Shown here: positions 7,133 to 45,600 of the stretch, piece after piece
Layout: each line of letters starts with the position of its first letter
Position numbering within the stretch: position 1 is the first letter of the stretch
DNA from: Bryopsis sp. KO-2023
Lineage: Eukaryota; Chlorophyta; Ulvophyceae; Bryopsidales; Bryopsidaceae
DNA: 64,000 nucleotides
Assembly (NCBI GenBank): GCA_030272585.1
Contig: BSYQ01000006.1
Location: 6,349,001-6,413,000, forward strand
Reading direction: 5' to 3'
The notes under the pieces: generated by a model
Seen by the model: only the letters and a program-made list of their open reading frames with translations
Told to the model about the DNA's origin: nothing
Database searches by the model: none
Translations under genes and position numbers: made by a program

Positions 7133-8751
7133 GACTTTGTTTGTGGGAGAAAAGAGTGAGAGAGAGGGATACAGAAAGAGTGATCAGATGAGAGGGACTA
7201 GTAGTGAGTGGAGGAACAAGAAACCATGGTGGTGGCTAATTTCTTTTGGATGTCTTCTTGCTCAGCGTTTTTTTGTTGTCTGTTGGTATGGGTGTTTTTT
7301 TTTCCCTTCAAGTACTTCGATTTGATCCCTGAATTAGAGCTGGATTTGCAGAGCTGTTTTTTTAGGGGAAGGGGGGTGGGTTGGGGTGAGGTATTGTTTT
7401 GTTCAAAGATGCCTGGAGATGGAGTGGGAAAGAGGGAACGAGAGTGATTTGTATGAGTGGCAATTAGGGAACAGGAGGGATATTTTGAGGGTTTTGTTTC
7501 GGACATGTCAGTTAGACGATTGTCCGCACGTCTTAGTCGACAAATATATTCAGATGAAACGCTACCTATCTGAAACAAAGCCTTCACAAAGCAACACAAA
7601 ATTCGCCCAGTTTGCTGTGAATCTCGGCCACCAACACAGGAAGCAGACCATCACTCATGATAACATCCTGGCCTGCCTCTTTGTGTCGACTCGACAGGAA
7701 GCATGCTGAATCCAAAAACTGAGAAGCGTCCGCAACCGACATTCGTCTTCCTGCCCAGGTGGTTTGGGGCTAAAATCAGTACAGTCCTCTGAGGAGGGAG
7801 CAACAGCATTTGCCTCCATTTTCTCAGTGTTTTCATCTTGTCATCTTATCTTAAAAACAGATCCACTATGGGCGTTGGATTCCAGGAGAGAAAGAAACAG
7901 GCAGAAAAAGGCTTCACCAACTGCAAAACTGGCCAGAACGGCCAATCTCAGCAATCTGAACAGATCCCTGTTCCACCAGGGATCCATGGATGGATTGATC
8001 ACTCTTTCTGATGCAATCCTATGTGAGCTGACTAACTGCCTTGCTTACCTTTCAGCTGAACCCGCTCAATGTTTTGATTTGGGGGTGGTGCAGGCTGGTT
8101 GCAGCCAGCATTCCCCCTTTGATGGGGACTCTGTATTACGAGTTCAAGCTCTACACCCTTTCCCCCATAAAACCAAAGCAAAAAGAAAACCCTGCCGTAA
8201 AAAGTTATTGGTAGATATGGTTGTGCTCGGCTGCACAGATAATTCTATTCTTCGTATGGAGCGTATGGAGCGTTTTCGGGTGCATGCGTAAGTAGCCTTT
8301 TAAACATAGTTTCAAGTGCTCTACACCATTAGTTCTCCAGCGGAACATTTCCAAGAAACCTTTGTTCTCATCTCATGTCCACGAGGCCTTCTTGGTCAGG
8401 ATTTTTTTTATTTCAGGCAGCTTTGTGTTGGAAGCAGAAGTGCAACAATCTTTCATTTCAGCAGGCTCTCTTGTTTCATGATACCAGAAGAATGGAAAAT
8501 AAAAATGAAATCACAAAACGCACTGACTATCCCTCAAACCCCAGATGAGATAAGAATGAGAACATGTCAGCATGACTAATGAAATCCAGGTTCTGGGTTT
8601 GTGTGTCAGAGATACCCACACCAAACTCTAGGTTATATCTATATGTAGAAATTATCAAAAACGCAGCCCTCCTGGTACAAAAAAGGACATAAACTTCTGC
8701 CCATATCCTCTCTTTTCCCAATGCAACCCGAAAAACCCTGCCCACTCTCGT
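7133..8751. other. Convergent intergenic region between the coiled-coil gene and GYRA
   Basis: About 1.6 kb lies between the stop codons of two convergent genes and should contain both 3' untranslated regions. T-rich and G-rich tracts occur near 7260-7400. Short open frames exist on both strands, but none has splice signals, composition or similarity that supports a gene. No repeat or RNA gene was recognised. Confidence 0.6.
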
Positions 8752-14559
<5,808 letters not shown>

Positions 14560-15769: not shown

Positions 15770-17459
15770 TCAAACACTCAGCAATACTTGTAAAGAAAAT
15801 GAAATTAACACCAACAGAGGCACCCATCTGTAAACCGTGGATGTGGCTCCGCTGGCCAGTGGAACGTTTTGATCTTGTTCTACCGACTGAATGTCGATCT
15901 GGCCCTCCCCAGAATCGTCTTTCCACAAATCTGGTTGGTAACGAACGCTCTCTAGCGTCCTGTAAACCTTGTCCGATTCTCCGAGGTAAGTCGTGGTGTC
16001 TGAGTCGATGCGAACCAACCCCACCGCATCGTTCGAAAACATGTAATTGTAAGGGTTGTTCTCCCGACTGAAAACCATATCTTTGAATTCGTCCATTTTG
16101 GAGGCGGCGACGAGGGCGTTTTGGAATTGGCTGCCTCTCGTCATGTAGCTTCCATATTTGACCACGACGCTGGGTGCCGGAAATCTGGCCAGGTTGCATG
16201 AGTCGAATTCGCTGACGGGTTGGCACCCACGCTTGTCTGCACAAAGCAATCTGAAATCCGAAGAGTCCATGCCATTCCCAAGGATGGCAGAGTGTTTGGT
16301 GAACATGACATCCCCGCCATCGTCCATCAGGCACCGGAGCGCCCCCGAGTAATCGTAGTATAGGTCATCATTGCTGCAGTCACCCTGGAAATATCCCGAT
16401 ATCCAAAACAGTCACTTACAGCTGAAAATTGCACAGGGGCATATTTTTTCTTCAAGGTGTTGACTGGTGCGGAGCTTCAGACGCAAACGGACAATAAGGG
16501 AGCACTAGTAGGCTTGGCAGATTGAGCAGAATTGAGAAATGCGGGGGGGTTCACCTTGCAGCCTTCACACAAAGGTTTCCATATCTGGCCTTCGCCGTCT
16601 CTGGAGTTCATGGGACCATTATCTGACACGCGGGGGGCGCAGACGCTGCTGAAAAAGCTGGCAGCAGACTCGGCGTCGTTCTCCACGTCCGCTTCATTAT
16701 CAACCACCGGCATGAGCCTCGTCGAAATGAGGCTGGCCATCACGGCATCCCAACCTGGACAAAAAACGGACGGATCCCACGTTCGTTCGTTAGAGGCTGG
16801 GAATTGGGTGCCTTTTTCAAGCTTCACAGGAGCTAGCGGCGATCGAGATCAGTTTACCTGCACTCTTCCTGTATCCAGTGTGGCAACTTCGAGCACCCTT
16901 GACGTCTGCCAGCGATATGTCATCGCTAGTGCAGAATTCCTTCTTGACAACGGCCACAGAGTAATAGCTGGTGGACAGCTCCCAGCCACTGTTCTCCCCA
17001 ATGACCGCGCTCAATCCATATTTCGTGAAACCCAAGTACAAGTCGGATCCGTCGACCGTTTTCCACTGCGCTGCGTTCACCGAGATCGCGCGCAAACAAG
17101 CCTCAGACGATTTCTCCTCGTGGCAGCCCCAGCCGAACTCTGGTGAGACCTTCTTAAGCAGTCGGACCACCTAACACAGAAGAACAGCTACAGATATTCA
17201 AACGCAGCCGCCACCAGAGCCGCCAAAGCAGCCAATGACAGAAACTGCATTTTCATACAGTCAGACGTAGGGCAACACAGTTTCTGGCGAGTGCGATTTT
17301 TCCGCAGGTGTGGTTCCCAAAAGCTGAAGAGTGAAACTCGACTCACGTCGCGGCAGAACTTCATTTCTCTGTCGTTCTTTGCGCAAAAGACTGCAGGTAG
17401 GGTGAGGCCTTGCTGGACAGAGGCCGTCTTTGGAACGTCAAGAAAAACGGATTGCACCG
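15770..17459 (-). repeat. Transferrin lobe 7 module with hydrophobic C-terminal tail
   Basis: Exons 17459-17347, 17170-16858, 16754-16555, 16384-15770. The exon layout differs from lobes 1-6: different boundaries and no intron before the His region. Asp (TVDGSD), Tyr (SYYSVAVV) and Tyr (YYDYSGAL) are kept, but the His position reads Pro (FPAPSVVV). The tail ends in about 20 hydrophobic residues directly before the stop. Confidence 0.85.
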
Positions 17460-20400
17460 CTGCACAGCCACAGAACGAAATGTCGTTAGATGGAGGTGCA
17501 CTCCGAAGCAAACTCGTGTAGTTCTTATTTGTTCAGAATAGATCGAAAGCTGTACAGTTGAGTTTTAGCCCCTCCACTGGAAGAGTTTCGTCCTCTAGGC
17601 TAACCAACAAAACGGGCAAGAGCAGCCGGACCAAAAATATCTTACAAAAAAATAGTGGAAATTAGACAAGAAATACAGTGCCAGACTGAGTCAAGCTGAA
17701 AGCGAATTGGAGAGATGAGAATGATCCAGTTTGTCATTGGAACATATTCAACAAATAAATACTCGTCAGAAAATATGGATTCTGTGATGCTGCAACACCT
17801 GTTAGGGAAGCCCGAGCTTCAGCAGTCAGGAAATCTCCAGTGACGGGTTCCAGACTCTTTGTCCCTTTTGTCCACATGAAATTGTTTTTCAGGCCCCGAG
17901 TCTTTTCCAAGAACTTTGGACCAGCATCGAGAATTGCTTCTTTGATGGCCTCGCTCAATGTCCGGTCTTCGAATTTCACATCTTGCAATTCTGGAGACAC
18001 AATCATGGCATGCCCCGGTGCCTGCCAAATCGAAAGAAAAAACATCCTTTACTCTTTACCTCGACAAGCAGAGAATTCCAATCCACACTCTTTTCAAAAC
18101 CTGAGAAGTTCTTTCCCTTGCACACCAAATAAACTCTAGAATGAGGAAAACGATACAGAAGTTTGAACTCACCAAGCCCAGATTACATGTCCCGTACTCC
18201 TCCACATCCTTGCATCCTCCCTCTCGGCACAGCAATTTAAAATCAGACTTTGGCTTGCCAGACCACGCCCTCAAAATTTCATCGGCGGCACCATCAGATG
18301 CATAGTCCAACACAGTGGTGTGCCTGACAAAAGCCACATCCCCGCTGTCCTCGGTCAGACATCGGAACGCTCCATCGTAATCATAATAGATGTCGTTGGT
18401 GCTGCAATCCCCTTTGCAACCGGTGCATAGTTTGTCCCATTTTTCTCCAACATCATTGTCGCCGATCTTAGGTCCCCTCCCGCTTGTTCGAGGAGCACAG
18501 GTTTCCGAGAAAAACCCTGCCACCAACTCGGCATCATCCTCAATATCATCCAATGTTCTTTCCCCAGTACGGAATTCTGAAACATCATCAAGCAAAGCAC
18601 CGAGAGGCAGGAACCAGCCACCCTGCAGAAAACACACAGTGAAAGCACAACAGATAATCTTTAGTTTTTGTGCTGAACTGAGAGGGTGGGCTTCCAAAGT
18701 GGTTATTGTGCCCAGCATGCCAGAATATTCCAGTTAAGAAAATATATGCAAGTGAGATGTTGGGCTACAAATCGGCTTTTATCTCATACACACGGTGGTG
18801 ACGATTTGTGTAACTCACCATTTTTCTGAAGCCGGTGTGGCAGGATCGAGTTCCCTTCAAGTCAGCCAAAGTAGGCTCCCCATCCTCACAAAATTCCTGA
18901 GGAGAAAGTAAAGCAAAGGTGAAAAAAGGGAGTTGTAACCAGATTGTCCACAGGATTCAGCACAGTACGACAAACAATCCAAGGTATTATACCAGGTCGA
19001 GATTTTTTGTGTGGAACAAAAAATTCCTTTGTTTAATGGGTGTGTGGGCAGGGTTGGGGGTTCAGTGTGTACCTTGTTGACGACAGCCACCGAATAGTAG
19101 GTTCCCAAAGGTGCCCCATCATTATGGTCTTCAAGCACTGTTGGAATCAAGCCTGAAGAGAGATCTCCAGTAAACACATCACCGCCTTCCAGCGTAGTCG
19201 CATGGGCCACCCCACTTTTCAGCAAATCAACACACTGAAAAAAAAAAGCAACAGATTAGCTTCAACCTCTTTGGGTTTTCTATTTCGTGAACTGCACATG
19301 AAAGGTAGATATCGCTTCGTACCCCTTCAGCGCTGCCTCCTGGGACGCATTCGAATTCCAGTCCATCTGTGTTTGCTATCCCAACAGCAGCTGTGCAGTC
19401 TCTGAGGAAACCGGCTGCCCTCAACGGGCTTTCATCCAGAGGGTAAGGAACACAGACCTTCACTCTTGTTTTTTCCAACTTAGGAGCAATTCCCTCATCG
19501 ACCCCAGAAAGAGCTACGGAAGAAAAACCACAGAAAAGAGTACTTTACATATACTCATCCCATTTGATGCGTTTTATCAGGGGATGCCCAAAAACTCATA
19601 CTGAAGAACTCGTATCATATTTCGTGTGCGTGTTTTGTCAGTACCCAGAAGAGCATCCTCAGCTTCATCGGTAAGGAAGTCATCCTGAATAGGTTCCAGA
19701 CTCTTGGTTCCCTGACTCCACACGAAACTGTTTTTGAATCCCCGTGTCTTTTCCAGGAACTCCGGTCCAGCCTCCAGAATGGCATCAGTTATGGCTATCT
19801 TCAAATTCGACTCTCCGACAGTCTCGAAATCAAGTCCAGGGGCAAGGTACATTGCGTGTCCTGGTGCCTACAGAACAGAATCAAATAAGAATACATCGAA
19901 TATATACAGGGATCAGAGTCTTCCTGCGAATCCAACTGACAATTCAAACCCACCAAGCCTAGATTGCAGGATTCAAAATCTTCCACATCCATGCACCCTC
20001 CGTCGCGGCACAGCAATTGGAAATCAGACATTGGTTTCTCGGACCAAGCCCTCTGTAATTCATCTGCAGAGCCATCGGAGGCATACTCCAACACGGTGGT
20101 GTGCTTCACGAAGGCCACATCTCCACTGTCCTCCGTCAGACATCGGAACGCTCCCTTGTAATCGTAGTAGAGATCATTAGTGCTGCAGTCTCCTTTACAA
20201 CCTGTGCACAGTTCATCCCAGTTCTCTCCGAAACCCTTGGCATTGATCTTGGGCCCATTTGAGAGGGTTCGAGGCGCACAGGTCTCTGTGAAAAAGTTGG
20301 CCATCAACTCAGCATCGTCATGAACATCATCCACTATCCTCTCTGCATTCCGGAAATCAGACACCTCCTCCATCAAGGCACTGAAAGGGAGAAGCCATCC

Positions 20401-23400
20401 GCCCTGAAATAGGTTCACAAATTCAGAATGCTGAAAACTCACAGTTTTTTCCCTCTGCTGAAATCCACTGGATTTTTGGAAGGGAACGAAACGACACCAG
20501 AACAAACTTGCAATGCAATGATACCCAATAAAGGAACAGAAAACAAAGTAGAAAAAGAGTAAACAGCTAAATACATATATATATTTTAGACTCAGCAGAC
20601 TGTGGAACTCATTTTGTGTATGTATCCAACATAATTCACTCACCATCCTTCTATAGCCGGTGTGGCAGGATCGAGTTCCCTTCAAGTCCGCCAAAGTAGG
20701 CTCCCCATCCTCACAAAATTCCTGAGGAGGGGAAAAAAAACCGAAATATACAAGAAAATCAAGTCAAGAACACGAAAAACCCAACAACCAATATTTATTG
20801 AAGCATCCATACTTCCTTTGGAAAATTCAACAGATAAGAGAAACAAAATTCGAGGCAAACCAGAAGAGCCGGAGTTTCTTTTCCGGACCAGCCTCGAAAG
20901 GAAAAAGGAATTGTTAGTACCTTGTTGACAACAGCAACTGAATAGTAGGTTCCAGCCGGAGCCCCATCTCCAAGGTCTTCCATGATCACAGGAATCAAGT
21001 CAGCAAATTGATCCTGGACAAAAACATCTCCACCTTCCAGGGTTGTTACATGGGCTTCCCCACTCTTCAGCAAATCCACACACTGGGAACACAGAAACAT
21101 CGATCACATCTCTGTCTGATTGCCCTTTCGATTGCTGGGAAGGTCTTCCAATTCGATTGTGTTGTTGCAGTACTGGCATATTTGTTTTACCTCCGCTGAA
21201 CTGCCTCCAGCAACACATTCAAACTCAAGGTCTGCTGTGTTTGCTGTTCCGATGGCAGCTGTACAGTCTCTGAGGAAACCGGCAGCTCTTGCTGGGGATT
21301 CATTGAGATAGTAAGGCACGCAGACCTTTACAGTTTTAACTTTGCGAACGTCCTCCTCCACAATAAGGTCGGAAAGGGCTTTGAGAGCAGCAGCACCGTC
21401 GTCGGTGAGAAAATCTCCCTCAATAGGTTCCAGACTTTTGGTTCCTTGACTCCACAAGAAACTGCTCTTAAATGCCCGTGTCTTTTCCAGGAACTCGGGT
21501 CCAGCACCAAGAATGGCTTCGTTGATGGCCTCACTCAAAGTGTCCTCCCCAATCAAAACATCATCCAGATCAGGTGCAAGTACCATTGCATGTCCTGGTG
21601 CCTGTGAAATCAAACAAGAATTTAGTCAACAGACAAACAAATCAGGTTGTCATTGCACCTGAAATGGCACCAAACTCACCAAGCCTAGATTACAGGATTT
21701 AAAATCTTCCACATCCATGCACCCTCCGTTGCGGCACAGCAATTGGAAATCAGACATTGGTTTCTCGGACCAAGCCCTCTGTAATTCATCTGCAGAGCCA
21801 TCGGAGGCATACTCCAACACGGTGGTGTGCTTGACAAAGGCCACATCTCCACTGTCCTCAGTCAGACATCGGAAAGCTCCCTTGTAATCGTAGTAAATGT
21901 CGTTGGAACTGCAGTCTCCTTTGCAGCCAGTGCACATATCATCCCATTTTTCTCCAACACCACCAACACCATTTTGAGGTCCGTTGCCATGGGTTCGGGG
22001 CGCACAGGTCTCTGAGAAAAAATTGGCCACCAACTCTGCATCATCCTCGATATCATCGAATGTTTTGTCCCCATCCTCAAAGTCAGACACCTCCTCCATC
22101 AAGGCACCTAAAGGAAGGAACCAACCCCCCTGGACAAAATCGCACAGCATATTAAAATTATGAACACATCCCAACAATGGGTGCCAATGTGCCAAAGTCC
22201 CAGTCAATAAGCAAGGCTGAAAATCGCATGAAGAAGCATCAAATGTCCACTCACCATTTTTCTGAAGCCGGTGTGGCAAGATCGAGTTCCCTTCAAGTCT
22301 GCCAAAGTAGGCTTCCCATCCTCGCAAAATTCCTGAGGGGAAAAACGCATGCACACCAACAAATATTAGCAAGGAGAAATAGATACTGGTGGCCAGAATT
22401 TTCCCTGGATCACTTCTCAGGTACACAAGGCTTACTGTAGAAATACACTGAACAAATAGGTGCGATCATTCCCTGTACCTTGTTGACGACAGCCACTGCA
22501 TAGTACGTTCCTGGAGGAGCACCATCTCCAAGGTCTTCAGTTATCGTTGGGACCAATTTGAGCGATTGATCCCCAACGGTGAATAAATCTCCCCCTTCCA
22601 ACGTAGTCATATGGGCTTTGCCACTGTTCAGCATATCGACACACTGAAAGTGCAAGAGCAAAACAGAATCAGTACACAGGCGGGTTTTTTCAGGTCACCT
22701 CAACCACCACAGTAAACAGTTGCAATATTTTAACTTTACCTCCCCTGCACTGCCTCCGGCCACGCATTCAAACTCTAGTCGGGCAGTATTTGCTGTTCCG
22801 ATGGCAGCCGTGCAGTCTCTGAGGAAACCGGCGGCTCTTGCTGGGGATTCATCCAGAGGGTAAGGCACGCAGACCTTCACAGTCGCACTATCAAGCGCAT
22901 CCTCTGCTGCAATGATTTTGGCAGCAGCTGCATCACAGAATTGATGTTACATCCACAGCCATTGCAGTTTCGTCTTGAGAGCCCAGCAGTTTGGTCCAGC
23001 AGGTCCACTAGGTGAAATTTAATAACCATCTCTGGGATTTTACGGTTGATCAATTTTCTGCCTGCAATTTTTGAGACCGCTTCCAGTTGTTGAATGCACA
23101 CTTACATGTGAGTGCAGCACTGGCATCGTCGGTGAGAAAATCTCCCTCGATGGGTTCCAGACTCTTCGTTCCCTTACTCCACATGAAACTGTTTTTGAAA
23201 CCTGCAGTTTCTTCCAGAAATTTGGGCCCAGCGTCAAGAATGGCTGCATTGATGTCCTCACTCAAAGTCTCATCCAGTTCAGGGGCAAGGACCATTGCAT
23301 GTCCTGGAGCCTGTGACATACGACAGATAAAATATGAGCTAATGCAAGAAACATATGAGAAAGATGTCAGTCTGCTTCACAACTTGAATGGAGCGATTGA

Positions 23401-26400
23401 ACTTACCAAGCCTAGATTACAGGATTTAAAATCTTCCACATCCATGCACCCTCCGTCGCGGCACAGCAATTGGAAATCAGACATTGGTTTCTCGGACCAA
23501 GCCCTCTGTAATTCATCTGCAGAGCCATCGGAGGCATACTCCAGCACGGTGGTGTGCTTGACAAAGGCCACATCTCCACTGTCCTCCGTCAGACATCGGA
23601 ACGCTCCCTTGTAATCGTAGTAAATGTCGTTGGAACTGCAGTCTCCTTTGCAGCCAGTGCACAGTTCGTCCCAGTTCTCCCCGACATCGTTAACTCCCAG
23701 TCGGGGTCCGTTTGCGAGGGTGCGAGGGGCACAGGTCTCTGAAAAGAAATCGGCCACCAGCTCGGCATCATCGTGGACATCATCAAACTCTGTGACTCCT
23801 TTGCCAAATTCAGGAACATCTTCCATTAAGGCGCCGAGAGGAAGAAACCATCCACCCTTGAGCAAGATAGTACTTCAGTTAGCCTGTGTGCATGGCGTCG
23901 ATATGGGTTTTCTAGCCATACAATATGAAAAAAGACGGTAAAAAACTCTATTGCTGGAGATTCATTGTGTCGTGATCACACGGATGTCTTCCAGTGTCAA
24001 TCAGGAGTCATGGTGAGAGGGCCTCCAATGACAGAATGCGAAAATCAGCTCATTCTTACCCCCCCCCCCCTTATACTTCAATGCACACAATTCACTCACC
24101 ATCTTTCTGTAACCGGTGAGGCAGGATCGAGTTCCCTTCAAGTCCGCCAAAGTAGGCTTCCCATCCTCACAAAATTCCTGGAAAAGTTTCACAAAGCAAC
24201 AGTACTCAAGAGATATTTGTGGTGGCAGCCAGAGTTTTGCAGTATCATACAGAGGTATGTGGGGCTCACTTTGGGGAAATTTAGAATAAAGAAGAGACAC
24301 CCCTGGACTCCATTACCTTGTTGACGACAGCCACTGCATAGTAGGTCCCTGGAGGGGCACCATCTCCAAGATCTTCAGTAATTGTTGGAACCAATTTCAC
24401 TGATTGATCCTCAAGTGAGAACAAGTCCCCTCCTTCCATTGTAGTCACATGGGCTTCACCAGTCTCCAATAGATAAGAGCACTGTACAAAAAACCAACAC
24501 ATCAACAATTCTCAGCCCCTGAAACTAAAACTAAAACTTCTTGCTCATCTTCACTGGAAGGTTTTCATATTTGAATTTTCATTTGAAAAGACTGATTTCG
24601 CTTACCGCATCTGGGCTTCCCCCAGCAACGCATTCGAACTCAAGCTTCGCTGTATTTGCGGTTCCGATGGCAGCCGTGCAGTCTCTGAGGAAACCAGCGG
24701 CTCTTGCTGGGGATTCATTCAGAGGGTAAGGCACGCAGACCTTCACAGTCGTAAGTTCAGGAACATCCTCGTTGGAAACAATCTTCGAAAGGGCTGCACA
24801 GCCAAACAAAATAATACAGTCAATAACCGAAACGAAACATCAGTGTACTGCCACACAAGTGGGTCAGTCTCTGATGGGATCACCTGTCAAAGCAGAACTG
24901 GCTTCCTCGGATAAAAAGTCTCCTTCGGTAGCTTGCAGAGTTTGTGTCCCTGGACTCCACATGAAGCTGTTTTTGAATCCCCGTGTTTCTATCAGGAAAT
25001 TTGGCCCAGCATTAAGAATGGCTGCGTTGATGGCCTCACTCAAAGTCCCATCTCCAACAGGGATGTCGTCCAGTCCAGGGGCAAGGACCATCGCATGTCC
25101 CGGTGCCTGATAAATCATAATTGAAAAACATGAATGATTACAGTTCAGAGATTAAAAAAATGCTTCAGAATTTTTGCAGTCGTCCTGGATGGCACTGAGC
25201 TCACCAAGCCCAGATTGCAGGATTCGAAGTCCTCCACATCCATGCACCCTCCATCACGGCACAGCAATTGGAAATCCGACTTCGGCTTTTCGGACCAAGC
25301 CCTCAGGGTTTCGTCCACAGAACCATCAGATGCATACTCCAGCACGGTGGTGTGCTTCACAAACGCCACATCCCCGCTGTCCTCGGCCAGACATCGGAAT
25401 GCTCCCTTGTAGTCGTAGTAGAGGTCTTTGGAACTGCAGTCGCCTTTACAAGCTGTGCACAGTTTATCCCATTTTTCCCCGACACCACCAGCACCATTTT
25501 GGGGTCCGTTTCCACTGGTTCGAGGAGCACAGGTCTCTGAGAAAAAATTGGCAACCAACTCGGCATCATCCTCAATATCGTCCAAGTCTTTGTCCCCATC
25601 CCGGAATTCAGACACATTATCCAGCAGAGCACCAAGAGGAAGAGACCATCCACCCTGCAGGTAATGACACTTACTTTTTCAGCATGAGTGAGGATTCTTT
25701 CCTTTTGTTGGTGGAAATAGTTCTCTAACACAGGAACATAAGTAACCAAACGGTCTGTTTCCTGCATTTCTGTTTCTTTGCAATAGGTTGGAATAAGCAA
25801 ATAAAACACGATGTATCTGTCTTCATATAAACATGATACTGAAAGCACAAATCGCGGAGGAACGCTGGACATTCATATGTAGATGCAAGTATCGACTCAC
25901 TATTTTTCGGAAGCCAGTGTGGCAAGATCGAGTTCCCTGCAAGTCTGCCAAAGTAGGCTTTTTACCCTCACAAAATTCCTGTTCAAAAAAATCACAATGA
26001 AAAAAGATCAGATCAGAATCTTAACTGAAAAATCTCCGACAGTGGGCTATCTTTGTGTTTTGTGCTTTGACAATTAAGGAAATAGAAATACAGGAAGATA
26101 ATTTAACAGAAAAATTTACAGCTACCCCCCGAACTAGATTCACTGACTTTATTTTCCTGCACAGGTGGACTCAATTTCGTTGCATGATTTCATAAGAGAG
26201 GTGAGTGTAAAGAAGATTCAATGATATGCAAAACAGGACACACACCCACACCCACAAAATCTGCCAAACAATTCACTGACGAACCACAGTCATTGAATCA
26301 GAAGCATTCAATGACTACCAATTTCACTACTTAAAAAAAAAACTCGTACGGTTGCTAGGGTGCTCCATTCCATTCATCCTTTTATCAGCAATTCCCTTAC

Positions 26401-29400
26401 CTTGTTGACAACAGCCACTGCATAGTAGGTTCCAGGAGGAGCCCCATCTCCAAGATCTTCGGTAATCGTTGGGATCAATCCTGATTCATCCCCTGTAAAC
26501 ACATCACCTCCCTCCAAAGTGGTCACATGGGCTTCACCGCTCTTCAGCAAATCCTTGCACTGAACCATGACACAAAATCACCTCAGCGTTTTGTTTTTCT
26601 TCTTTCAAGATTGAGAAATTCCTGATTTTGAGTAGCTGGACTGATTTTGCTCACCCCTTCTGCACTGCCTCCAGCAATGCATTCGAATTCCAACAGAGCA
26701 GTGTTTGCTTGTCCAACAGCGGCTGTGCAGTCTCTGAGAAAACCAGCGGCTCTTCCTGCGGATTCATCCAGAGGGTAAGGGATGCACACCTTCACAGCCG
26801 TAACTTTGGAAACTTGCTGGTCGGAAACGATGTTCGAGAAAGCTGCAGACAAAGCCGAAAAAGTAACATTTTGAGAAATCAGGTGATTCACCATTCCCCA
26901 CACACACAACCGAAACAGCAAAATATACACCGCATATGCTACAAAAGCTAATAATATACTGGATTGAACTGGCTAGAAAAAGGACACATTCAGACTATGA
27001 ACGCCTAAATAAGTCCAGGCGGTGCTACTTGCAATGGTATGGAAGGGGTAAGCAATGAATGGAAGTTACTGTACGATTCAGCGAATTTGAATATTCCTGG
27101 GGCAACCGTTCTCCCAAACTACTCAAGAAGCAGTCAAAATGAGAAAGAGAATTTTCCTCCTGTCGAAACTTTCTCTGATTCTCTGTAGAACAGAGGGAGG
27201 ACACCAACAAAAAAAAGTTCAAAGTTTTTGCGCACAGGAAAGAGTAGTGATAGCCGCAGGATTCGGGAATAAAGAAGGGGCAGCCTTCAAGGAGGAGGCT
27301 CCGGCGCTCCAAAGGAATCCCCTGCCGACAACGAGTTCTGTCGTGTTTTCAACAAACCCATCCCCAGCATTGAGTAAGGCCTTTTGAATGGCCGCCCCCA
27401 AGTCTTCCTCGAAGTCTCCCTTTGTCATAGCACTCGTTCCGACAAGAGCGTGGCCAGGGGCCTTAGGCAACACACACACAAGAACATACTCAGATTGTTA
27501 TAGTATGTTAAATTATTAGATATAGATAGAATATCTATTCTTAATTTTACATGTTTAAATCAAGAATAGTTCGCTCGTTTTGGGAGGAAACTAGAGCCAA
27601 GTGGTTTTTCATCAGGCATCATACATCAAAAGACTCTGACTAATGGTTGAAAGGTTTTGACGAGTGATATCATTGACCAAGAATGATTCACTCTCTCTCT
27701 CCCGCATTTCCTACCAGGGCCAGATTGCACGTTTTAAAATCCTCCACATCCATGCACCCTCCGTCACGGCACAGCAATCTGAAATCCGACTTCGGATTTT
27801 CAGACCAAGCCCTCTGTAATTCATCTGCAGAGCCATCGGAGGCGTACTCCAACACGGTGGTGTGCTTCACAAAGGCCACATCTCCACTGTCCTCCGTCAG
27901 ACATCGGAACGCTCCCTTGTGATCATAGTAGAGATCCTTGGCACTGCAGTCTCCTTTACAAGCTGTGCACAGTTCCTCCCAATTTTCCCCGACACCACCA
28001 GCACCATTTTGGGGTCCGTTACCAAGGGTTCGAGGTGCACAGGTCTTTGAGAAAAAATTGACCACCATCTCTGCATCATCCTCGATTGTTGAAATCGTTT
28101 TCTCTGGCAAGGAAAAATCCGTAGTGTCTACAGCGAGGGCACCGACTGGTATATACCATCCAGCCTACATTCACCAACATTAGAAACTGGAATTAGAATT
28201 TTTCATTCGACACTATCTTATCTGATTGAAAGTTTTTGACAACCAAAAAATTTGACTATGAATTACACAGGCATTGGTGTTTGATACACACCAGAGAAAC
28301 AATACACAATTTCTGACGCCATATTTTTAAATATAAGTCTGGCAAAACTATTGGCAAAAGTGTAAGGGTACTCCAAGATTTCTATAAAACAGATTAATTG
28401 CTAACGTTTCATATGCACATAAGTTTTTTTCTCAGATTGTGTAGCCCAAACTGTTGAGCCAGTTGGGTTTGCTGTGTTCCGAAATCAAAAACATTGCCCA
28501 GACGAATTTAAAAAAAGTTATGCAGCAATTTCTTTTGGTTCAATAAATATGCCAATGTCATTCACATCAACTTTCATTTCAGAGGAAATAGCTGCACTTG
28601 GCTGACCCAGTTTTGTGCAAATAAAACTTCAGTATCTGAGGAAAATCTAGATACTTCTACCCTTTGTCGATTTTTTTCGCTGGTTTCTGTTGGCTTATGT
28701 GTTTTCATTGTTCCTCCTGGTGCATTCACAGTGGCCACTGCAACTCAATCAGTATGTTATTTTTCACCCTCACCATTTTTTTGTATCCTGCGTGGCAAGA
28801 TCGAGTGCCCTTAAGGTCTGCAAGCGAGACACTACTGTTTTTGCAGAATTCCTGCACACAAACCGACGAAAAGGTTTTTTTTCACAAAAATCAATATTCA
28901 TCCATAATACCATGATGACTGTCCCTGAAAGCAGCAACTCGTGCAAATGATAAGATCTATAAACACGATGTTTTACAGAGTTTCCGCATCGGAAGTTGTT
29001 ATTAACTACAGCTGCCAGGATTACACTTTTTGCCTGGTTTGGAAAGAGTGACCTTGCCTTTTTGACAACTGCAACTGCATACTGAAGTCCAGCTGGGGCC
29101 CCATCATCCAAATCCTCCACAACCAGAGGAGTGAGCCCAAAATTCTCCGATGCATGGAAAATATCTCCTCCATCCAAAGTTGTAACATCAGCCTTCCGAA
29201 GATCGAGCATGCTTATGCACTGTGTCATATACCAAAAAAAGAGACATCACGGAAATGCGCGCAGTACATCTACCGTTCACGCGCCAAATCGAAACGTGTG
29301 ATTCTCATTTTACTTCCTCCGCAGGAAGTTTAATCATACATATGGATCCTCCGCACAGCGTTACACCCCAAACCCACCCCTTGCCCTGGGTCCGCAGGCA

Positions 29401-29678
29401 AGAAGAAACACGGGAAGTTCGGCGACTTTCTCCCAAAGTTTAAACAGATCGTGCGCCCAAGGTCTTACTTTTTCGGCGCTCCCTCCTTCGACGCAAACGA
29501 ACTCGACATCATCGTTGTTGGCCTTGGATAGAGCCGCGGAGCAGTCCCTCGTGAACCCAGTCCCCACGGTATACGGGACGCACACTTTGACGGTTGTCGG
29601 CACCGCAGCGACCTCACGTAGAACTGCCAAAGATAAGACGACAAGAAGGGCTATCGACCCAACTGAAAGGTTTTCCAT
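15770..29678 (-). CDS. Seven-lobe transferrin (poly-transferrin), predicted cell-surface iron-binding protein
   Basis: Transferrin lobes bind one ferric ion with carbonate. Thirty-three exons join without a phase conflict to 2,619 residues. The ATG at 29678 opens a signal peptide (MENLSVGSIALLVVLSLAVL, cleavage likely after REVAA). Lobes cover about residues 26-375, 376-741, 742-1103, 1104-1471, 1472-1838, 1839-2206 and 2207-2619. Lobes 1-6 repeat one plan: KVCVPY...DCTAA, TLEGGD, TYYAVAVVNK, EFCEDGKPTLADLKGTRSC, GGWFLPLGAL, FFSETCAPRT, YYDYKGAFRCL, GDVAFVKHTTVLEYASDG, CNLGL, APGHAM. Lobe 7 is more canonical (PAVFCAKNDREMKFCRD). The C terminus, after a Ser/Gly/Ala stretch, is a hydrophobic tail (VPLLVLISFSLQVLLSV) that fits a GPI anchor or a membrane stop. 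Dunaliella has a three-lobe plasma-membrane transferrin; seven exceeds any case I know. Function in iron uptake is inferred. Intron phases repeat lobe by lobe. Confidence 0.92.
17799..19513 (-). repeat. Transferrin lobe 6 module
   Basis: Exons 19513-19323, 19234-19073, 18896-18819, 18622-18173, 18021-17799. Glu, Tyr, Tyr (YYDYDGAF) and His are at the ligand positions. It is more diverged than lobes 3-5 (for example VRHTTVLDYASDG). Confidence 0.87.
19645..21378 (-). repeat. Transferrin lobe 5 module
   Basis: Starts within the fused exon 21601-21191, then exons 21082-20921, 20721-20644, 20403-19954, 19867-19645. Glu, Tyr, Tyr and His are at the ligand positions. Confidence 0.87.
21379..22927 (-). 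repeat. Transferrin lobe 4 module
   Basis: Exons 22927-22740, 22643-22479, 22332-22255, 22129-21680 and the first 223 bp of the fused exon 21601-21191. Glu, Tyr, Tyr and His are at the ligand positions. The intron that separates every other pair of lobes is absent at the boundary with lobe 5. Confidence 0.87.
23106..24793 (-). repeat. Transferrin lobe 3 module
   Basis: Exons 24793-24606, 24481-24317, 24177-24100, 23856-23407, 23310-23106. Glu, Tyr, Tyr and His are at the ligand positions. The His after the conserved Cys is Leu here (SCLTGYRKM). The 450-bp exon is almost identical to those of lobes 4 and 5 over its 3' half. Confidence 0.87.
24884..26842 (-). repeat. Transferrin lobe 2 module
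   Basis: Exons 26842-26655, 26559-26401, 25978-25901, 25654-25205, 25106-24884. The predicted ligands are Glu (TTLEGGD, in place of Asp), Tyr (TYYAVAVV), Tyr (YYDYKGAF) and His (APGHAM). Confidence 0.87.
27236..29678 (-). repeat. Transferrin lobe 1 module (signal peptide, divergent metal site)
   Basis: Exons 29678-29469, 29219-29058, 28851-28774, 28164-27715, 27461-27236. The Asp ligand is kept (TTLDGGD) and the His is kept (APGHALV), but the first Tyr is Gln (GLQYAV), the second Tyr is His (YYDHKGAF), and the anion-site Thr is Ala (CHAGYKKM). The second intron begins GC rather than GT. The last exon differs from those of the other lobes. Confidence 0.85.
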
Positions 29679-33894: not shown

Positions 33895-36800
33895 TTATTT
33901 TTGGCGGCTCTCGTAAGCACTCACACACTCTCCAGCATTCTGCAAATTCGCCTCTGGTTCCCATGTGTCGTGCGACACATCGTAACCCTTCCATCGTACG
34001 AGGTACTGTACTTTGCCTCTGTTAATCCTTTTATTTAATATTTGCTCCACTTCGAATTCTTCAGCTCCATCCACCAGCTCTGGTCCTGGCTGCACTTGTT
34101 GCAGTCTGCCAGGGAATTCACCTTGCTCTTCCTCATGTGCAGCTTTCAGCTTAGAGGTGTGGAACACATCATGAATCTTCCCAAAGGCTGCAGGCAGTTC
34201 CAGCTTTACTGCAACATCAGAAATGCATTTGCTGATGGTAAAGGGACCGCAATATTTTGCAGTCAGCTTGCGGCTCAGGCTTGGAGAAACTCGTAGATCC
34301 CGAGTGGAGAGAAAAACGCGATCGCCTGGGCGGAATTGTCCTCCCCGCCTAGATCGGTTAGCAGTCCTCTGCTGACGAGCTTGGGCAGCACGAATGTGAG
34401 TGCGTGCAGTATCCAAATTCGTAGTCCAAGTAGCCCACCATTGATCTGCTGCAGGTGAGGTAACCGAGGCTGCAACAGTGCTGGGAAGGCGAGGTTCGCG
34501 TCCAGTGACCATGTAGAACGGGGAGAACCCCGTGGAACTCTGCACGCTGGAATTGTATGCAAATTCAGCGGCAGTCAGGCGCAGATCCCAATCGCGCCCA
34601 GCGGGTTCAACATAATTGCGCAGAATGGCCTGCACACTCCGATTAGCACGCTCCGTTTGGCCATCGGTCTCAGGGTGATAGGAACTGGACATTGCCAAAC
34701 GTGTCCCGGACAGCTTCCATAATGCTTGCCAAAATCCACTGGTGAAGCGTGCATCCCTGTCGGATACAATCGTGCGGGGCAGTCCATGTAGGCGCACAAT
34801 GTGATCGAAGAATAATCGTGCAGTGCCAGCTGCAGTCACAGTCTGCACCGTCGGGATGAGGTGCAACATCTTGCTGAAACGATCCACCACGACCAGCAAG
34901 TAATCATGGCCATTGGTCGTAGTGGGCAACGGTCCCATGAAGTCCATCGCCACATCCTGCCAACGCTCATCCGGAATGGGCAGGGGTTGCAGCAACCCCA
35001 TGGGCTTCTGATTTGTAGGTTTATTCTGTTGGCACGAAATGCAAGTTGCAACGTAGCGTTGCACAGTGCCTGACATTTTGGGCCAAAAATAGTCTTGCTG
35101 CACTCGTTTCAGTGTGCGATGTCGTCCGAAGTGTCCGGCCATAGCAGCATCGTGACACTCGTGCAGTATAACAGGCTGCATGTCCTTGGGGATCCACCAT
35201 CTCCACTCGCCTCCAATGTGGCGCCATAACTTGCGACCATCCCAGCGAATGTGCTTTGGCTTATGTCGTGCAGCAATGATGAGGCTGCAAAGCGGGTCAG
35301 TTTGGTAGGCCTCGAAGACCTGCTCCTCCAACGGCTTGGTTGCCTCCACTGTTGATGCTGCACAGACATGCAGTTCCTCCTGGCGTGTCTTTTGATGCGT
35401 GGCTCGGCTCAAGGCATCAGCGACAACATTGTCACGGCCTGGTCGATATTTGATTTCAAACTTGAATTCATGCAGCAACTCCATCCATCTCGCTTGTCGC
35501 TTGGAGAGCTGCGGCTGCGTTTGCAGATATCGCAGTGGCGCATGATCAGTGTAGATAACGAACTCTTCAGCATCCAGGTAATGTCGCCACGTTCGAATTG
35601 CATGGATAATCGCCAGCAGCTCCTTCTCATGCGTTGCATAATTCATCTCTGCAGGGTTCAGCTTCCTGCTTTCGTAGGCTACAGGCTGCTGTCCATTGCC
35701 TTGGTCTTGGGTAAGTACTGCTCCTACTGCATAGTCGGATGCATCTGTTGTCAACTCAAACTTCAGTGCTGGGTCTGGCACCAACAGCACTGGGGCCTCC
35801 ATCAGAGTTTGCTTCAACTTTTCCATTGCAGCTGAGGCTGCAGCATCCCAGTTCCATGTAGTAGTCTTCTTTAGCAGGTGGGTCAAAGGCTGGGCTATCG
35901 CTGAAAAGCCTTTGATAAACCTCCGGTAGTAATTGGCTAATCCCAAAAATGATCGCAGCTCCTTCAAACATGTCGGCGCAGGCCATTGCTTGATGACCTC
36001 GATTTTCTCCTGCAGCACTCCAACTCCGGCTGCACTGATCTCATGTCCAAGGAACTCCACTTTAGTGCAACCAATGTCACACTTCTTGTCTGAAACGTAA
36101 AGCTTCTGCTCCTTGAGGATTTGGAATATCTTCCGCAGGTGACCTTTGTGCTCTCTCCAGCTGCGACTGTAGACCAGTATATCGTCGAGGTAGACTACGC
36201 AGAACTGGTCCAAATGTTCATGCAGCACGTGGTGCATGGTGTTCATGAACGTTGCAGGGGCGTTCGTAAGCCCAAAAGGTAGCACAACGTATTCGTACAG
36301 CCCATAGCGTGTTCTGAACGCCGTTTTTTCGCAATCTTCAGGCTCCAGCCTCACTTGGTGGTAGCCAGAACACAGGTCTATCTTGCTGAAGACCTTGCAG
36401 CCCTGCACCTGGTCCAGCAAATCCTCAATCCGTGGAATCGGGTAGCGATTCTTTATCGTGAGCTTGTTGAGTGCGCGGTAATCCACGCATAGTCGCATTT
36501 TCCCGTTCTTTTTCGGCACAAAAATAATCGGCGCTCCCCAAGGTGATTTGCTAGGCTGAATGAAACCTTGCTTCAGCAGTTCTGCAAGCTGCTTCTTCAA
36601 CTCCTGCTGTTCTGCAAATCCCAGCCGATATAATCCTTTCTTCTGCGGCACAGCTCCTTCTTCCAGTTCGATTTTATGGCGCACGCCACGATCCGGTGGT
36701 AACTCATTGGGTAATGTGTCCCGAAACAATTCTCCAAACTCCTCACGCATTTGCTTTTCCAACAGCTTTGCTTCTTGCTTGTTCCGTGACTCTTCTGCAG

Positions 36801-37806
36801 TCAATGTTGGCTCTGCAGCTGTAGTTGCAGCATCCGGTTTGTCGGCCTCGTAGACATGTACTAGAAAGGCTTGTTCTCCATGCTTCACTGCAGTCGCGAG
36901 CTGCAGTGCTGAAATGATTTCCAGCCCTTCCTCGTTTGTGTCCTCGGTTCGCCCTTTTCGCATGCGCAACTTGTGCTTTCGTCCATTCTGCACCAGGGTA
37001 ACTCGGCGTCGGTTCCAATCGATTGCAGGATTGTGCTTCTGCAACCATGCCATCCCCAGTATCACATCGTAACGTCCCAGCGTAACTTCGTGCATCGTCT
37101 CTTGTGATTCGTAGTCGCCGAGGGAAAGTAATGCAGTGAGCTGCCGAGTGCTCTGTTCTGCAGTCTTTCCATCTGCAAGTAGCACCTCTGTAGCTTGTGC
37201 TGACTCTTGCAGTTCCATCCCATGTGCTTCTACCCAACTTCTTGAAATAAAGATATCTGTTGCTCCAGAGTCAATCAGTACTCTGACTTGCTTTCCTCCA
37301 ATCTGCCCAACAGCAGATAATAACTCCTTTGCAGTCTTGGCTGCACTTCCCAATTTCATTGATCCTTGATCTTGATTTTGCAGATTGGCTTCACTTGGCT
37401 CATTTGCAATGTCTTCACTCTCCAGTTTCCCATCATCGGCTACACTTGGCTCACATGGATGGTCTTCTCCCTTTTCCTCAGTCTGCAACTCTTTGCAGCT
37501 GGTATCACTCTCACTCTTCTCTCCTACATACATGGCTACTCCTGGCTCATTGTCATGTGGTTCCTTGATTTGCATTGCTTCGCAATCGAAATTTCCATTA
37601 TCGTTCGCACATGTGGCTACACTCGGCTCAACAATATGCTCGGCTCTTTCTTCCTCTTGTTTCAAACTTGGGTCTGCACTCCTCCTTGCAGCTCTGTCGT
37701 GGTTGCGGTTACGCCGACTCACATCCACTCCTCTTCTTTCCACTTGCGCCAGTATTCTCCGGCTAGAAACCCCATTGGCTCCCAGCCTATTTAGTTTTCC
37801 GGGCAA
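33895..37806 (-). CDS. pol: LTR-1 pol polyprotein (protease, RT, RNase H, integrase, chromodomain)
   Basis: 1,303-residue frame. Aspartic protease motif LIDSGAT; reverse transcriptase with YLDDILVYS; RNase H with TTDASDYAVGAVL; integrase with an H2C2 zinc finger (CISCQQNK) and core (DFMGPLP); C-terminal chromodomain (YLVRWKGYDVSHDTWEPEA) that places the element among chromoviruses, where the domain is thought to steer integration to marked chromatin. It overlaps the end of gag by a few bases, an arrangement for which Ty3 relatives use recoding. Confidence 0.93.
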   Translation of the reverse strand: MPGKLNRLGANGVSSRRILAQVERRGVDVSRRNRNHDRAARRSADPSLKQEEERAEHIVEPSVATCANDNGNFDCEAMQIKEPHDNEPGVAMYVGEKSESDTSCKELQTEEKGEDHPCEPSVADDGKLESEDIANEPSEANLQNQDQGSMKLGSAAKTAKELLSAVGQIGGKQVRVLIDSGATDIFISRSWVEAHGMELQESAQATEVLLADGKTAEQSTRQLTALLSLGDYESQETMHEVTLGRYDVILGMAWLQKHNPAIDWNRRRVTLVQNGRKHKLRMRKGRTEDTNEEGLEIISALQLATAVKHGEQAFLVHVYEADKPDAATTAAEPTLTAEESRNKQEAKLLEKQMREEFGELFRDTLPNELPPDRGVRHKIELEEGAVPQKKGLYRLGFAEQQELKKQLAELLKQGFIQPSKSPWGAPIIFVPKKNGKMRLCVDYRALNKLTIKNRYPIPRIEDLLDQVQGCKVFSKIDLCSGYHQVRLEPEDCEKTAFRTRYGLYEYVVLPFGLTNAPATFMNTMHHVLHEHLDQFCVVYLDDILVYSRSWREHKGHLRKIFQILKEQKLYVSDKKCDIGCTKVEFLGHEISAAGVGVLQEKIEVIKQWPAPTCLKELRSFLGLANYYRRFIKGFSAIAQPLTHLLKKTTTWNWDAAASAAMEKLKQTLMEAPVLLVPDPALKFELTTDASDYAVGAVLTQDQGNGQQPVAYESRKLNPAEMNYATHEKELLAIIHAIRTWRHYLDAEEFVIYTDHAPLRYLQTQPQLSKRQARWMELLHEFKFEIKYRPGRDNVVADALSRATHQKTRQEELHVCAASTVEATKPLEEQVFEAYQTDPLCSLIIAARHKPKHIRWDGRKLWRHIGGEWRWWIPKDMQPVILHECHDAAMAGHFGRHRTLKRVQQDYFWPKMSGTVQRYVATCISCQQNKPTNQKPMGLLQPLPIPDERWQDVAMDFMGPLPTTTNGHDYLLVVVDRFSKMLHLIPTVQTVTAAGTARLFFDHIVRLHGLPRTIVSDRDARFTSGFWQALWKLSGTRLAMSSSYHPETDGQTERANRSVQAILRNYVEPAGRDWDLRLTAAEFAYNSSVQSSTGFSPFYMVTGREPRLPSTVAASVTSPAADQWWATWTTNLDTARTHIRAAQARQQRTANRSRRGGQFRPGDRVFLSTRDLRVSPSLSRKLTAKYCGPFTISKCISDVAVKLELPAAFGKIHDVFHTSKLKAAHEEEQGEFPGRLQQVQPGPELVDGAEEFEVEQILNKRINRGKVQYLVRWKGYDVSHDTWEPEANLQNAGECVSAYESRQK

Positions 37807-42677: not shown

Positions 42678-45600
42678 TCAGCTTCTTATCTCAAACTCAC
42701 GTAACTTGTCCGGTGCGTTTCGCAAGTTTCTGGCAGGTTCCCAGGTGTCCTCCGATTGATCATAACCCTGCCACCTGACAAGGTACTGCTTCCTGCCCCT
42801 GACAGTCCTATCTGCCAGAATCCTGTCAACCAGATACTCCTCTTGGCCTGCCACCATTTCAGGCTCAGGTTGCCACCTGGGTGCCTCCCTGTCAGGAAAG
42901 CTGCCCTCCTGATCTTCGAAAGCAGGTTTCAGCTTGGACACATGGAAGGTGTTATGAATTTTCCAATGACCTGGCAGCCTCAGCCTGACTGCAACTTCAG
43001 ATAACCTCTTCAGAACTACAAAAGGTCCACAGTATTTTGCAGTCAATTTCCTGCTCAACACCTGTGGTAGGGGTAAGTCCTTTGTGGCGAGAAAAACTTT
43101 GTCGCCCGGCTGAAAGCCCCCTCCCCTTCTGTTTTCGTCCGCCCCCTGGCGTTGACGTGCCTGAGCAGAAGCAATGTTCCTTCTGCAGGTTTGCAATGCA
43201 GTCTGCCAAGTAGACCACCAATCATCCACTGCAGGGCAAGCTGTAGCAGCTACAGCACTTGCAGGAGTTCTGGGTTGTTGTCCATTCATCAAATAGAAGG
43301 GAGAAAACCCAGTTGTAGCATTTATGCTGGAATTGTATGCAAATTCTGCAGCATCCAAATGCATATCCCAGTCTGTGCCTGCAGGTTCCACATAACTGCG
43401 CAGAATTTCCTGCACTGTTCTGTTAGCTCGCTCAGTCTGACCATCTGTCTCAGGATGATAACTGCTAGACATTGCTAACCGAGTGCCTGCCTTCTTCCAA
43501 AGAGCCCTCCAAAAATTGCTAGTGAAACGACTATCCCGATCAGAAACAATTTCTTGAGGCAATCCAAAGAAACGAACCACATGTTGGAAAAACAAATCTG
43601 CTACCCCTGCAGCAGTAACTGTCTGCTTTGTTGGAATGAGTCTGATCATTTTTGTGAACCGATCCACAACCACCAGCAAATAATCTGACCCTTTCTGAGT
43701 CCTTGGCAAAGGTCCAACAAAGTCCAATGAAACACTAGTCCACCTGCCATCTGGAATTGGCAAGGGCTGCAGCTTACCCAAAGGCTTCTGAGTAGAGGCC
43801 TTGTTTCGTTGGCAGGGAATGCAATTCCTCACATACTTCTGCACAGATCCTGAAATGAGTGGCCAGAAGTAATACTGCTGAACCCTGTGCAGGGTCTTCC
43901 TCCTGCCCAGATGTCCTGCCAATGCAGACTCATGGCAAGCATGCAGTATCTTTTCCCTGAGCCCATCTGCTTCAGGTATCCACCATTTCCAGGAATGACC
44001 AACATGTCTCCAAAGTTTCAGACCATCCCATTTCACATGTGGAGGTCTGGAAGGTGCTCCAATCAGCTGCCAACATAATGGATCCTTCTTGTAAGCTGCC
44101 AGCACTGTCTGCTGAAATTCCCGATCTGCTGTCAACCTTATCCTTGCATTCAGCTGAGGACCATGTTCCTCTGCCTGATGTGTGGCCCTGCTCAACGCAT
44201 CTGCCACCACATTGTCTCTGCCTGGTCGGTACTTGATATCAAACTTGAAGGATTGCAGAGTCTCCATCCATCGTGCTTGCCTCTGTGACAGGTGAGGCTG
44301 GGTGTGCAAAAATTTTAGAGGTGCATGATCGGTGTGCACGGTGAACTCCTGAGCATCCAAGTAGTGCCTCCACACTTTCAGAGCATGCACCACAGCCAAC
44401 AGCTCCTTTTCATGAGTCGCATAGTTGAGCTCTGCCGGTTGCAGTTTCCTGCTTTCATATGCCACTGGTTGCTGACCCTGCCCCTGGTCCTGTGTTAGGA
44501 CTGCTCCAATAGCATAGTCTGAGGCATCTGTGACCACCTCGAATCTCAGACTTGGGTCAGGCACCAAAAGCACTGGTGCAGACATTAACGCCTCCTTGAC
44601 ATCCTGCATTGCTGCAGCTTCTGCCTCAGTCCATTTCCACACTGCCTCCTTTTTCAATAGAGCAGTGAGTGGTTTGGCTCTTGCAGAAAAATCCTTGATG
44701 AATCTTCTGTAATAGTTTGCCAATCCCAGAAATGACCTGAGATCCTTCACTGAAGTCAAAGGTGGCGAGTCCCTGATGACCTGCACCTTACTCTGCAACA
44801 CCTGTACTCCTGCAGCACTCAACTCATGCCCCAGAAACTCAACTTGCTCCTTGCAGATTTCACATTTGGAAGCTGAAGCATATAATTTCTGCTCCCTCAA
44901 TCTCTGCATCACCTTTTTCAAGTGAACCTTGTGTTCTGCCCAACTCTTGCTAAAAATCAAGATGTCATCTAAGTAAACGATGCAGAAGGTATCCAGGAAA
45001 TCATGTAACACATGATTCATTGTGTTCATGAAGGTGGCAGGAGCATTTGTCAGCCCAAAAGGAAGAACAATGTACTCGTAGAGGCCATACCTGGTGCGGA
45101 AGGCCGTTTTCTCACAGTCTGCAGGGTCCAACCGCACCTGATGGTAGCCTGCGCAGAGATCAATTTTGCTGAAGCAGCGAGCTCCCTGAATCTGATCCAG
45201 CAATTCCTCTATCCTTGGGATAGGGTACCTGTTCTTCACCGTTAGTTTGTTAAGTGCCCGAAAGTCTACGCACATCCTAAGCTTTCCGTTCTTCTTAGGA
45301 ACAAACAAAATTGGTGAACCCCAGGGTGACTTGCTAGGTCTGATAAAACCCTGCTTCAGTAACTCTGCCAACTGCTTCTTCAATTCTTCTCTTTCTGCAA
45401 AACTGGCTCTATAAAGCCCCTTTTTCACTGGTTCTGCCCCTTCTACCAATTCAATCTTGTGGTTCACACCCCTGTCAGGAGGCAATTCCTGCGGCAGTTC
45501 CTCTTTAAACAAATCCTGAAACTCCTTTCTGATCTGTTTTTCTAGCTCAACTGCCTCTTTCTGTTCCTCTGACAAGGTTTCTGGTTCACTGCCTCTCACT

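Follow-up and report, generated by a model that had tools for sequence, protein, structure and literature searches.

The 64,000-nucleotide window analysed here, from the genome of the siphonous green seaweed Bryopsis sp. KO-2023, carries, on its reverse strand, a gene whose predicted product comprises seven consecutive transferrin lobes (Table 1). The assignment to Bryopsis is borne out by a PsaD exon that differs from PDB 6igz, a Bryopsis structure, in one residue at either end of a 108-residue match, and by an Lhcb exon that agrees with ‘Bry-Lhcb1’ (8hlv) at 124 of 126 residues, both counted by eye. A gene for DNA gyrase subunit A lies downstream on the same strand, and Ty3-type retrotransposon frames lie upstream. 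Among eight adjoining frames given to Pfam, two match DNA gyrase A, two match a Ty3-type retrotransposon and four have no match; none of these results suggests a link to iron.

Table 1. Features of the array locus and of the other transferrin genes in the genome. Positions refer to the window unless a contig (C3, C8) is named; lobe spans are stated by exon, and site residues are listed as iron ligands, then anion ligands.
Feature	Location	Strand	Content	Basis
Seven-lobe transferrin gene	15770..29678	(-)	33 exons, CDS 7,860 nt, 2,619 aa	splice model, Pfam, spliced alignment
Predicted signal peptide	29604..29678	(-)	residues 1 to ~25, MENLSVGSIALLVVLSLAVLREVAA	hydropathy; cleavage site read by eye
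Lobe 1	27236..29603	(-)	exons 1-5; D, Q, H, H; A, K	
Lobe 2	24884..26842	(-)	exons 6-10; E, Y, Y, H; T, K	
Lobe 3	23106..24793	(-)	exons 11-15; E, Y, Y, H; T, K	
Lobe 4	21330..22927 (low end approximate)	(-)	exons 16-19 plus start of exon 20; E, Y, Y, H; T, K	
Lobe 5	19645..21329 (high end approximate)	(-)	remainder of exon 20, then exons 21-24; E, Y, Y, H; T, R	
Lobe 6	17799..19513	(-)	exons 25-29; E, Y, Y, H; T, K	
Lobe 7	15770..17459	(-)	exons 30-33; D, Y, Y, P; T, K	
C-terminal tail and stop	15770..15862	(-)	SGATSTVYRWVPLLVLISFSLQVLLSV	hydropathy, sequence; GPI-type signal read by eye
Intron 2	29057-28852	(-)	GC-AG; sole non-GT donor among 32	
Exon 20	21191..21601	(-)	411 nt, open; lobe 4 end to lobe 5 start	
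Near-identical tract	lobes 3, 4, 5, within exons 14, 19, 23		~60 codons, 98-99% DNA identity	
DNA gyrase subunit A gene	~8750-13800	(-)	downstream of array	Pfam on two frames
Ty3-type retrotransposon frame	33895-37806	(-)	upstream of array	Pfam
Ty3-type retrotransposon frame	42678-46841	(-)	upstream of array	recognised from translation
Ty3-type retrotransposon frame	50606-56721	(+)	upstream of array	Pfam on 50606-52174; rest recognised from translation
Intact one-lobe transferrins (n = 3)	C8 near 3.789 and 3.841 Mb; C3 near 7.160 Mb		379 residues each	
Fourth one-lobe copy, broken	C8 ~4,006,378-4,014,453		insert of ~8.1 kb inside third exon	hand-counted positions
His-rich transferrin gene	C3 ~7.1671 to 7.1633 Mb	(-)		read from translated DNA

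Exon structure and ends of the protein

Rebuilding the gene from the sequence gives the same frame that the sequence-only reading had proposed, in which 33 exons join without a phase break into 2,619 residues, and the single stop in the coding sequence lies at its end. The introns are of the GT-AG type in 31 of 32 cases, intron 2 being GC-AG. A spliced alignment served as an independent test, its query being a one-lobe transferrin encoded elsewhere in the genome, on contig C3. All 52 boundaries inside lobes, belonging to 26 of the 32 introns, agreed with the splice model, and the lobes scored 534–759 versus 36–53 for three control stretches of the window. Outside the coverage of the alignment lie the between-lobe introns 5, 10, 15, 24 and 29 (393, 90, 178, 131 and 339 nt, respectively) and intron 30, which are supported by the splice consensus, the frame and the homology of the flanking exons. 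The joint between lobes 4 and 5 needs no splicing because exon 20 spans both without interruption. By this sequence model, the seven-lobe array is very likely one gene.

The hydropathy profile of the protein peaks at residues 4–20, and the 25 most hydrophobic windows of 17 residues all fall within the first 40 or the last 25 residues. Hence, no inner lobe shows a signal peptide or anchor of its own, which bears out the earlier description of one signal peptide at the start and one hydrophobic tail at the end. The tail consists of small residues followed by 17 mostly hydrophobic residues that run to the very end. A signal peptide combined with a hydrophobic C-terminal tail after which no charged residue follows, as found here by hydropathy and by eye in the sequence, is the pattern of GPI-anchored proteins, and the array is probably secreted and GPI-anchored.

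Two or more genes, or transcripts that end between lobes, could still yield natural products with fewer lobes. The five lobe borders at introns 5, 10, 15, 24 and 29 are joined solely by splicing in this gene model, and splicing of melanotransferrin is described as giving a secreted form as well as an anchored one (PMC7804310). In five lobes the opening exon is preceded by an intron. When read back in frame, four of these exons reach a stop before any Met, which speaks against separate genes. The opening exon of lobe 2 does have one upstream in-frame Met, a point in favour of shorter products; it is followed by MVNHLISQNVTFSALSAA, which by eye is not signal-peptide-like. Hydrophobic residues are present before this Met, as they are in the open stretch of 16 residues that leads into lobe 3. 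Against shorter products also stand the exon shared by lobes 4 and 5, the confinement of the top hydrophobic windows to the two ends, the phase-1 intron at five of the six borders with the sixth border lying within an exon, and the length of the between-lobe introns (90–393 nt), which is small for a terminator plus a promoter. We therefore consider such products improbable and proceed with a single seven-lobe polypeptide.

Lobe identity and iron sites

A Pfam search of the predicted protein, the check that the sequence-only reading had itself proposed for its seven lobes in tandem, returns seven stretches for PF00405 (Transferrin), scoring 1105.9 bits where the cut-off is 20.3. Across the whole genome (91.09 Mb, 28 contigs), a six-frame search gives 19 matches to the same profile: ten at the array locus, including one strong match for each of the seven lobes, three on C3 and six on C8. 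Each lobe contains 14 cysteines and is 29–32% identical to the human transferrin N-lobe. When a 318-residue part of lobe 4 was compared with the PDB, melanotransferrin (6xr0) was the best match (1.9e-79), while pig serotransferrin scored 4.1e-61. A weaker Pfam match of the protein, to phosphonate-binding periplasmic proteins (105.5 bits, no single stretch being significant), is in keeping with the common origin given in PMC7676907; an NdhS match stays below its cut-off. By profile, the array protein is thus classified as a transferrin, with altered ligands.

The lobe number is neither the two of bilobal, animal-type transferrins nor the three of the Dunaliella type. To our knowledge, the known classes of transferrins have one, two or three lobes, and the seven-lobe array stands outside all of them. 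The pacifastin heavy chain of crayfish resembles the array in carrying more than two transferrin lobes per chain, namely three. Unlike the array, pacifastin is a soluble animal protein. The title of Liang 1997 presents it as a heterodimeric proteinase inhibitor with a transferrin chain. In the open-licence literature on multilobe and green-algal transferrins, no transferrin with more than three lobes is named in the titles or abstract beginnings among the matches listed. That animal transferrins are two-lobed, as the sequence-only reading states, is an oversimplification: monolobal forms exist according to PMC3125230.

Iron sites were read against the human transferrin N-lobe as a ruler; eight landmark residues were checked and fall in place (D63, Y95, T120, R124, Y188, K206, H249 and K296). 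None of the seven lobes has the exact D-Y-Y-H set: lobes 2–6 have E-Y-Y-H, lobe 7 has D-Y-Y-P and lobe 1 has D-Q-H-H. Both tyrosines and the anion Thr are retained in six lobes, and the His ligand, replaced by Pro in lobe 7, likewise in six. Lobe 1 lacks the equivalents of Y95, Y188 and T120, so that both tyrosine ligands and the anion Thr (here Ala) are gone. At the position of the anion Arg, one lobe has Arg and six have Lys. Since Lys occurs here in 10 of the 11 aligned Bryopsis lobes, it is the rule in Bryopsis rather than damage. In the dilysine release switch, all seven lobes have Ser or Thr at position 296, in a region that aligns poorly.

In other transferrins, replacement of the Asp by Ser does not abolish iron binding, while changing both anion ligands, Thr and Arg, does, as reported in the melanotransferrin paper PMC7804310. 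By the rule taken from that paper, lobes 2–6 should bind iron and lobe 7 may do so. Lobe 1 should not, because both tyrosines and the Thr are lost, and it is probably iron-inert. The array is therefore expected to hold five or six ferric ions. The earlier suggestion of several ferric ions per polypeptide stands at this number and does not extend to all seven lobes, given the lost ligands of lobe 1 and the lost His of lobe 7. With Glu for Asp in five lobes and Lys for Arg in six of the seven, the affinity of the sites may differ from that of animal transferrins.

Growth of the array and other transferrins in the genome

Lobes 1–6 share introns in alignment columns 52, 109, 135 and 295, all in phase 0. 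Five of the six lobe borders are marked by a phase-1 intron, which lies in column 376 of lobes 1, 2, 3, 5 and 6; the border from lobe 4 to lobe 5 has none. A unit flanked by phase 1 at each end leaves the frame intact when it is duplicated, and on these positions lobes 1–6 are read as duplications of one five-exon, phase-1 unit. The inner introns of lobe 7 (columns 27, 136 and 205) coincide with no within-lobe position of the other lobes. The levels of identity run parallel: lobes 2–6 are mutually 69–82% identical, lobe 1 is 56–60% identical to them and lobe 7 is 34–37% identical to the others. Because both intron positions and identity set lobe 7 apart, the gene is read as a six-lobe tandem placed before an older, divergent lobe that bears the tail. 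In a tree of 14 rows, lobes 1–6 group together (100/99), as do four rows of the one-lobe type (98/97). Lobe 7 falls outside both groups (87/81), on a long branch, and its placement is not relied on.

The lobes are under purifying selection: pairwise dN/dS, computable for 15 of 21 lobe pairs, is 0.13–0.25, and the six pairs with lobe 7 are saturated. The near-identical tract of lobes 3, 4 and 5 sits just after the second Tyr ligand and adjoins windows that are 88–97% identical; elsewhere, the ragged C-terminal end apart, these lobes share 64–92% of their DNA. Gene conversion is the simplest reading of this tract. Multiplication of the lobes by an assembly or tandem-array artefact, to which the 98–99% identity over ~60 codons might point, is extremely improbable and was rejected, as the other windows of lobes 3, 4 and 5 are 64–97% identical (ragged C-terminal end apart), dS among lobes 2–6 is 0.56–1.4, intron lengths differ between lobes and the array sits on a contig of 6.7 Mb.

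Three intact one-lobe transferrins, 89–97% mutually identical, occur elsewhere in the genome. They have a signal peptide, the full D-Y-Y-H set and no hydrophobic tail, and are predicted to be secreted. The three mapped genes of this type have, like lobes 1–6 of the array, introns in columns 52, 109, 135 and 295, together with a phase-1 border at column 379 and an extra intron at column 220. One- and seven-lobe transferrins with four common intron positions thus coexist in the Bryopsis genome, and these common positions make the step from a single lobe to the array readable in the DNA. According to PMC3125230, ascidians were the only group for which true monolobal transferrins had been claimed; the Bryopsis one-lobe proteins now stand against this.

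A fourth one-lobe copy on C8 is broken by an insert that starts with TG, ends with CA and has ACACC on both sides, resembling an LTR element. On C3, a further gene encodes a signal peptide and about 450 residues (hand-counted) of His repeats of the HPHxH type, continuing in frame into one transferrin lobe with Gly for the Asp ligand and Asn for the His ligand. The short exon that opens a spliced model of this gene (at 7.164 Mb) is spurious; the translated DNA gives the His-rich reading. The product is possibly a multi-metal binder fused to a transferrin lobe.

Possible role in iron uptake

We regard it as likely that the protein is a secreted, GPI-anchored array of seven lobes, grown by duplication, that captures Fe(III) with carbonate at the cell surface and is emptied after endocytosis, with NRAMP-mediated exit of the iron. 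The chain would stand on the plasma membrane under the cell wall and gather scarce inorganic Fe(III) from seawater. Lobes 2–6 would bind Fe(III) and carbonate at their E-Y-Y-H sites, lobe 7 may do so through D-Y-Y, and an inert lobe 1 would act as spacer or cap. After internalisation by endocytosis, iron would be released in an acidic compartment and leave it through reduction and an NRAMP-type transporter. In evolutionary terms, the five-exon, phase-1 unit would have been duplicated repeatedly in front of the older, tail-bearing lobe. That one lobe appears inert and another incomplete is not what a pure capacity argument predicts.

GPI anchoring, the metal and the uptake route are inferred, and for uptake we lean on Dunaliella p150, GPI-melanotransferrin and diatom phytotransferrin. 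For instance, the iron uptake of a diatom with mutated phytotransferrin is rescued by a membrane-anchored human transferrin N-lobe, and endocytosis and carbonate are required (PMC7676907). GPI-melanotransferrin is reported to bring iron in by endocytosis (PMC13213057), and p150 is described as a plasma-membrane transferrin in iron uptake (PMC6952985, PMC1224875).

The set of iron genes found is consistent with such a route: FTR1 was not found, and matches to NRAMP, ferric-reductase-type domains and multicopper oxidase are present. For FTR1, the six-frame search gave no match in the Bryopsis genome and was positive in 4 of 14 control genomes; a search of this kind could miss a gene split into short exons. 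NRAMP, with ten matches at two loci, was found exon by exon, so the genome search can detect split genes. Multicopper oxidase gave three matches at two places in the genome, and the ferric-reductase-type domain gave eight, some of which may be NADPH oxidases. Fea1, whose family is related to the diatom phytotransferrin ISIP2a, had no match in the Bryopsis genome, in a search in which no control matched either; this negative carries no weight in the argument.

A wider scheme, which we put forward tentatively and consider doubtful, is an extracellular iron economy built entirely on transferrins. The one-lobe and His-rich proteins would scavenge metal in the wall space, and the tethered array would take over the iron and be internalised, with lobe 1 as a cap or docking site. 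If so, the array would serve at once as receptor and as cargo and would take the place of a transferrin receptor and of the FTR1 route, and the soluble one-lobe proteins, with full D-Y-Y-H sites, would face the shifted E-Y-Y-H sites of the array. Candidate uses of seven lobes are capacity per anchor, reach through the wall and avidity for carriers.

Alternatively, the surface array might withhold iron in defence, starving epiphytic and endophytic bacteria rather than feeding the alga. Bryopsis cultures are reported to hold many tightly associated bacteria (PMC12509668), and animal transferrins limit iron for pathogens (PMC3125230). We consider this role unlikely: a membrane anchor fits uptake better, the secreted one-lobe proteins would be better candidates, and, as FTR1 was not found, another ferric route is likely needed. 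It is also quite unlikely that iron binding is a relic and that the array serves surface structure or adhesion, or carries a different metal. The inert appearance of lobe 1 and the incomplete site of lobe 7 would suit this reading; speaking against it are the purifying selection on the lobes and the fact that five of them still have both tyrosines, the His and the Thr. Ferric capture for uptake remains the reading that we prefer.

Several known systems share parts of the proposed design. The p150/TTf protein of Dunaliella salina, a member of a different class of green algae from Bryopsis, was reportedly described by Fisher in 1997 as having three (triplicated) lobes, versus seven in the array. 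It is likened to the array by description: both are green-algal transferrins, p150 is placed at the plasma membrane with a role in iron uptake in reviews (PMC6952985, PMC1224875), and the membrane location of the array is suggested by its tail. Melanotransferrin (MTf, p97, MFI2) likewise combines a GPI anchor with a mixture of active and inactive lobes (PMC7804310). It has two lobes rather than seven, and its inactive lobe is C-terminal and has lost D, T and R, whereas lobe 1 of the array has lost Y, Y and T. Phytotransferrin ISIP2a matches the proposal for the array as an anchored ferric and carbonate receptor that is emptied after endocytosis, but it is a different protein, termed a functional analogue of transferrin (PMC7676907).

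Transferrin lobe number is a discussed trait; kidney filtration or cooperativity has been proposed to account for the bilobal form (PMC3125230). In the giant coenocytic cell of Bryopsis, the use of extra lobes for capacity, avidity or reach through the wall becomes testable. Finally, a 2019 review calls the Dunaliella protein ‘fully specific’ and states that BLAST found no match in other algae (PMC6952985); as regards transferrins, this statement does not hold for the Bryopsis genome.
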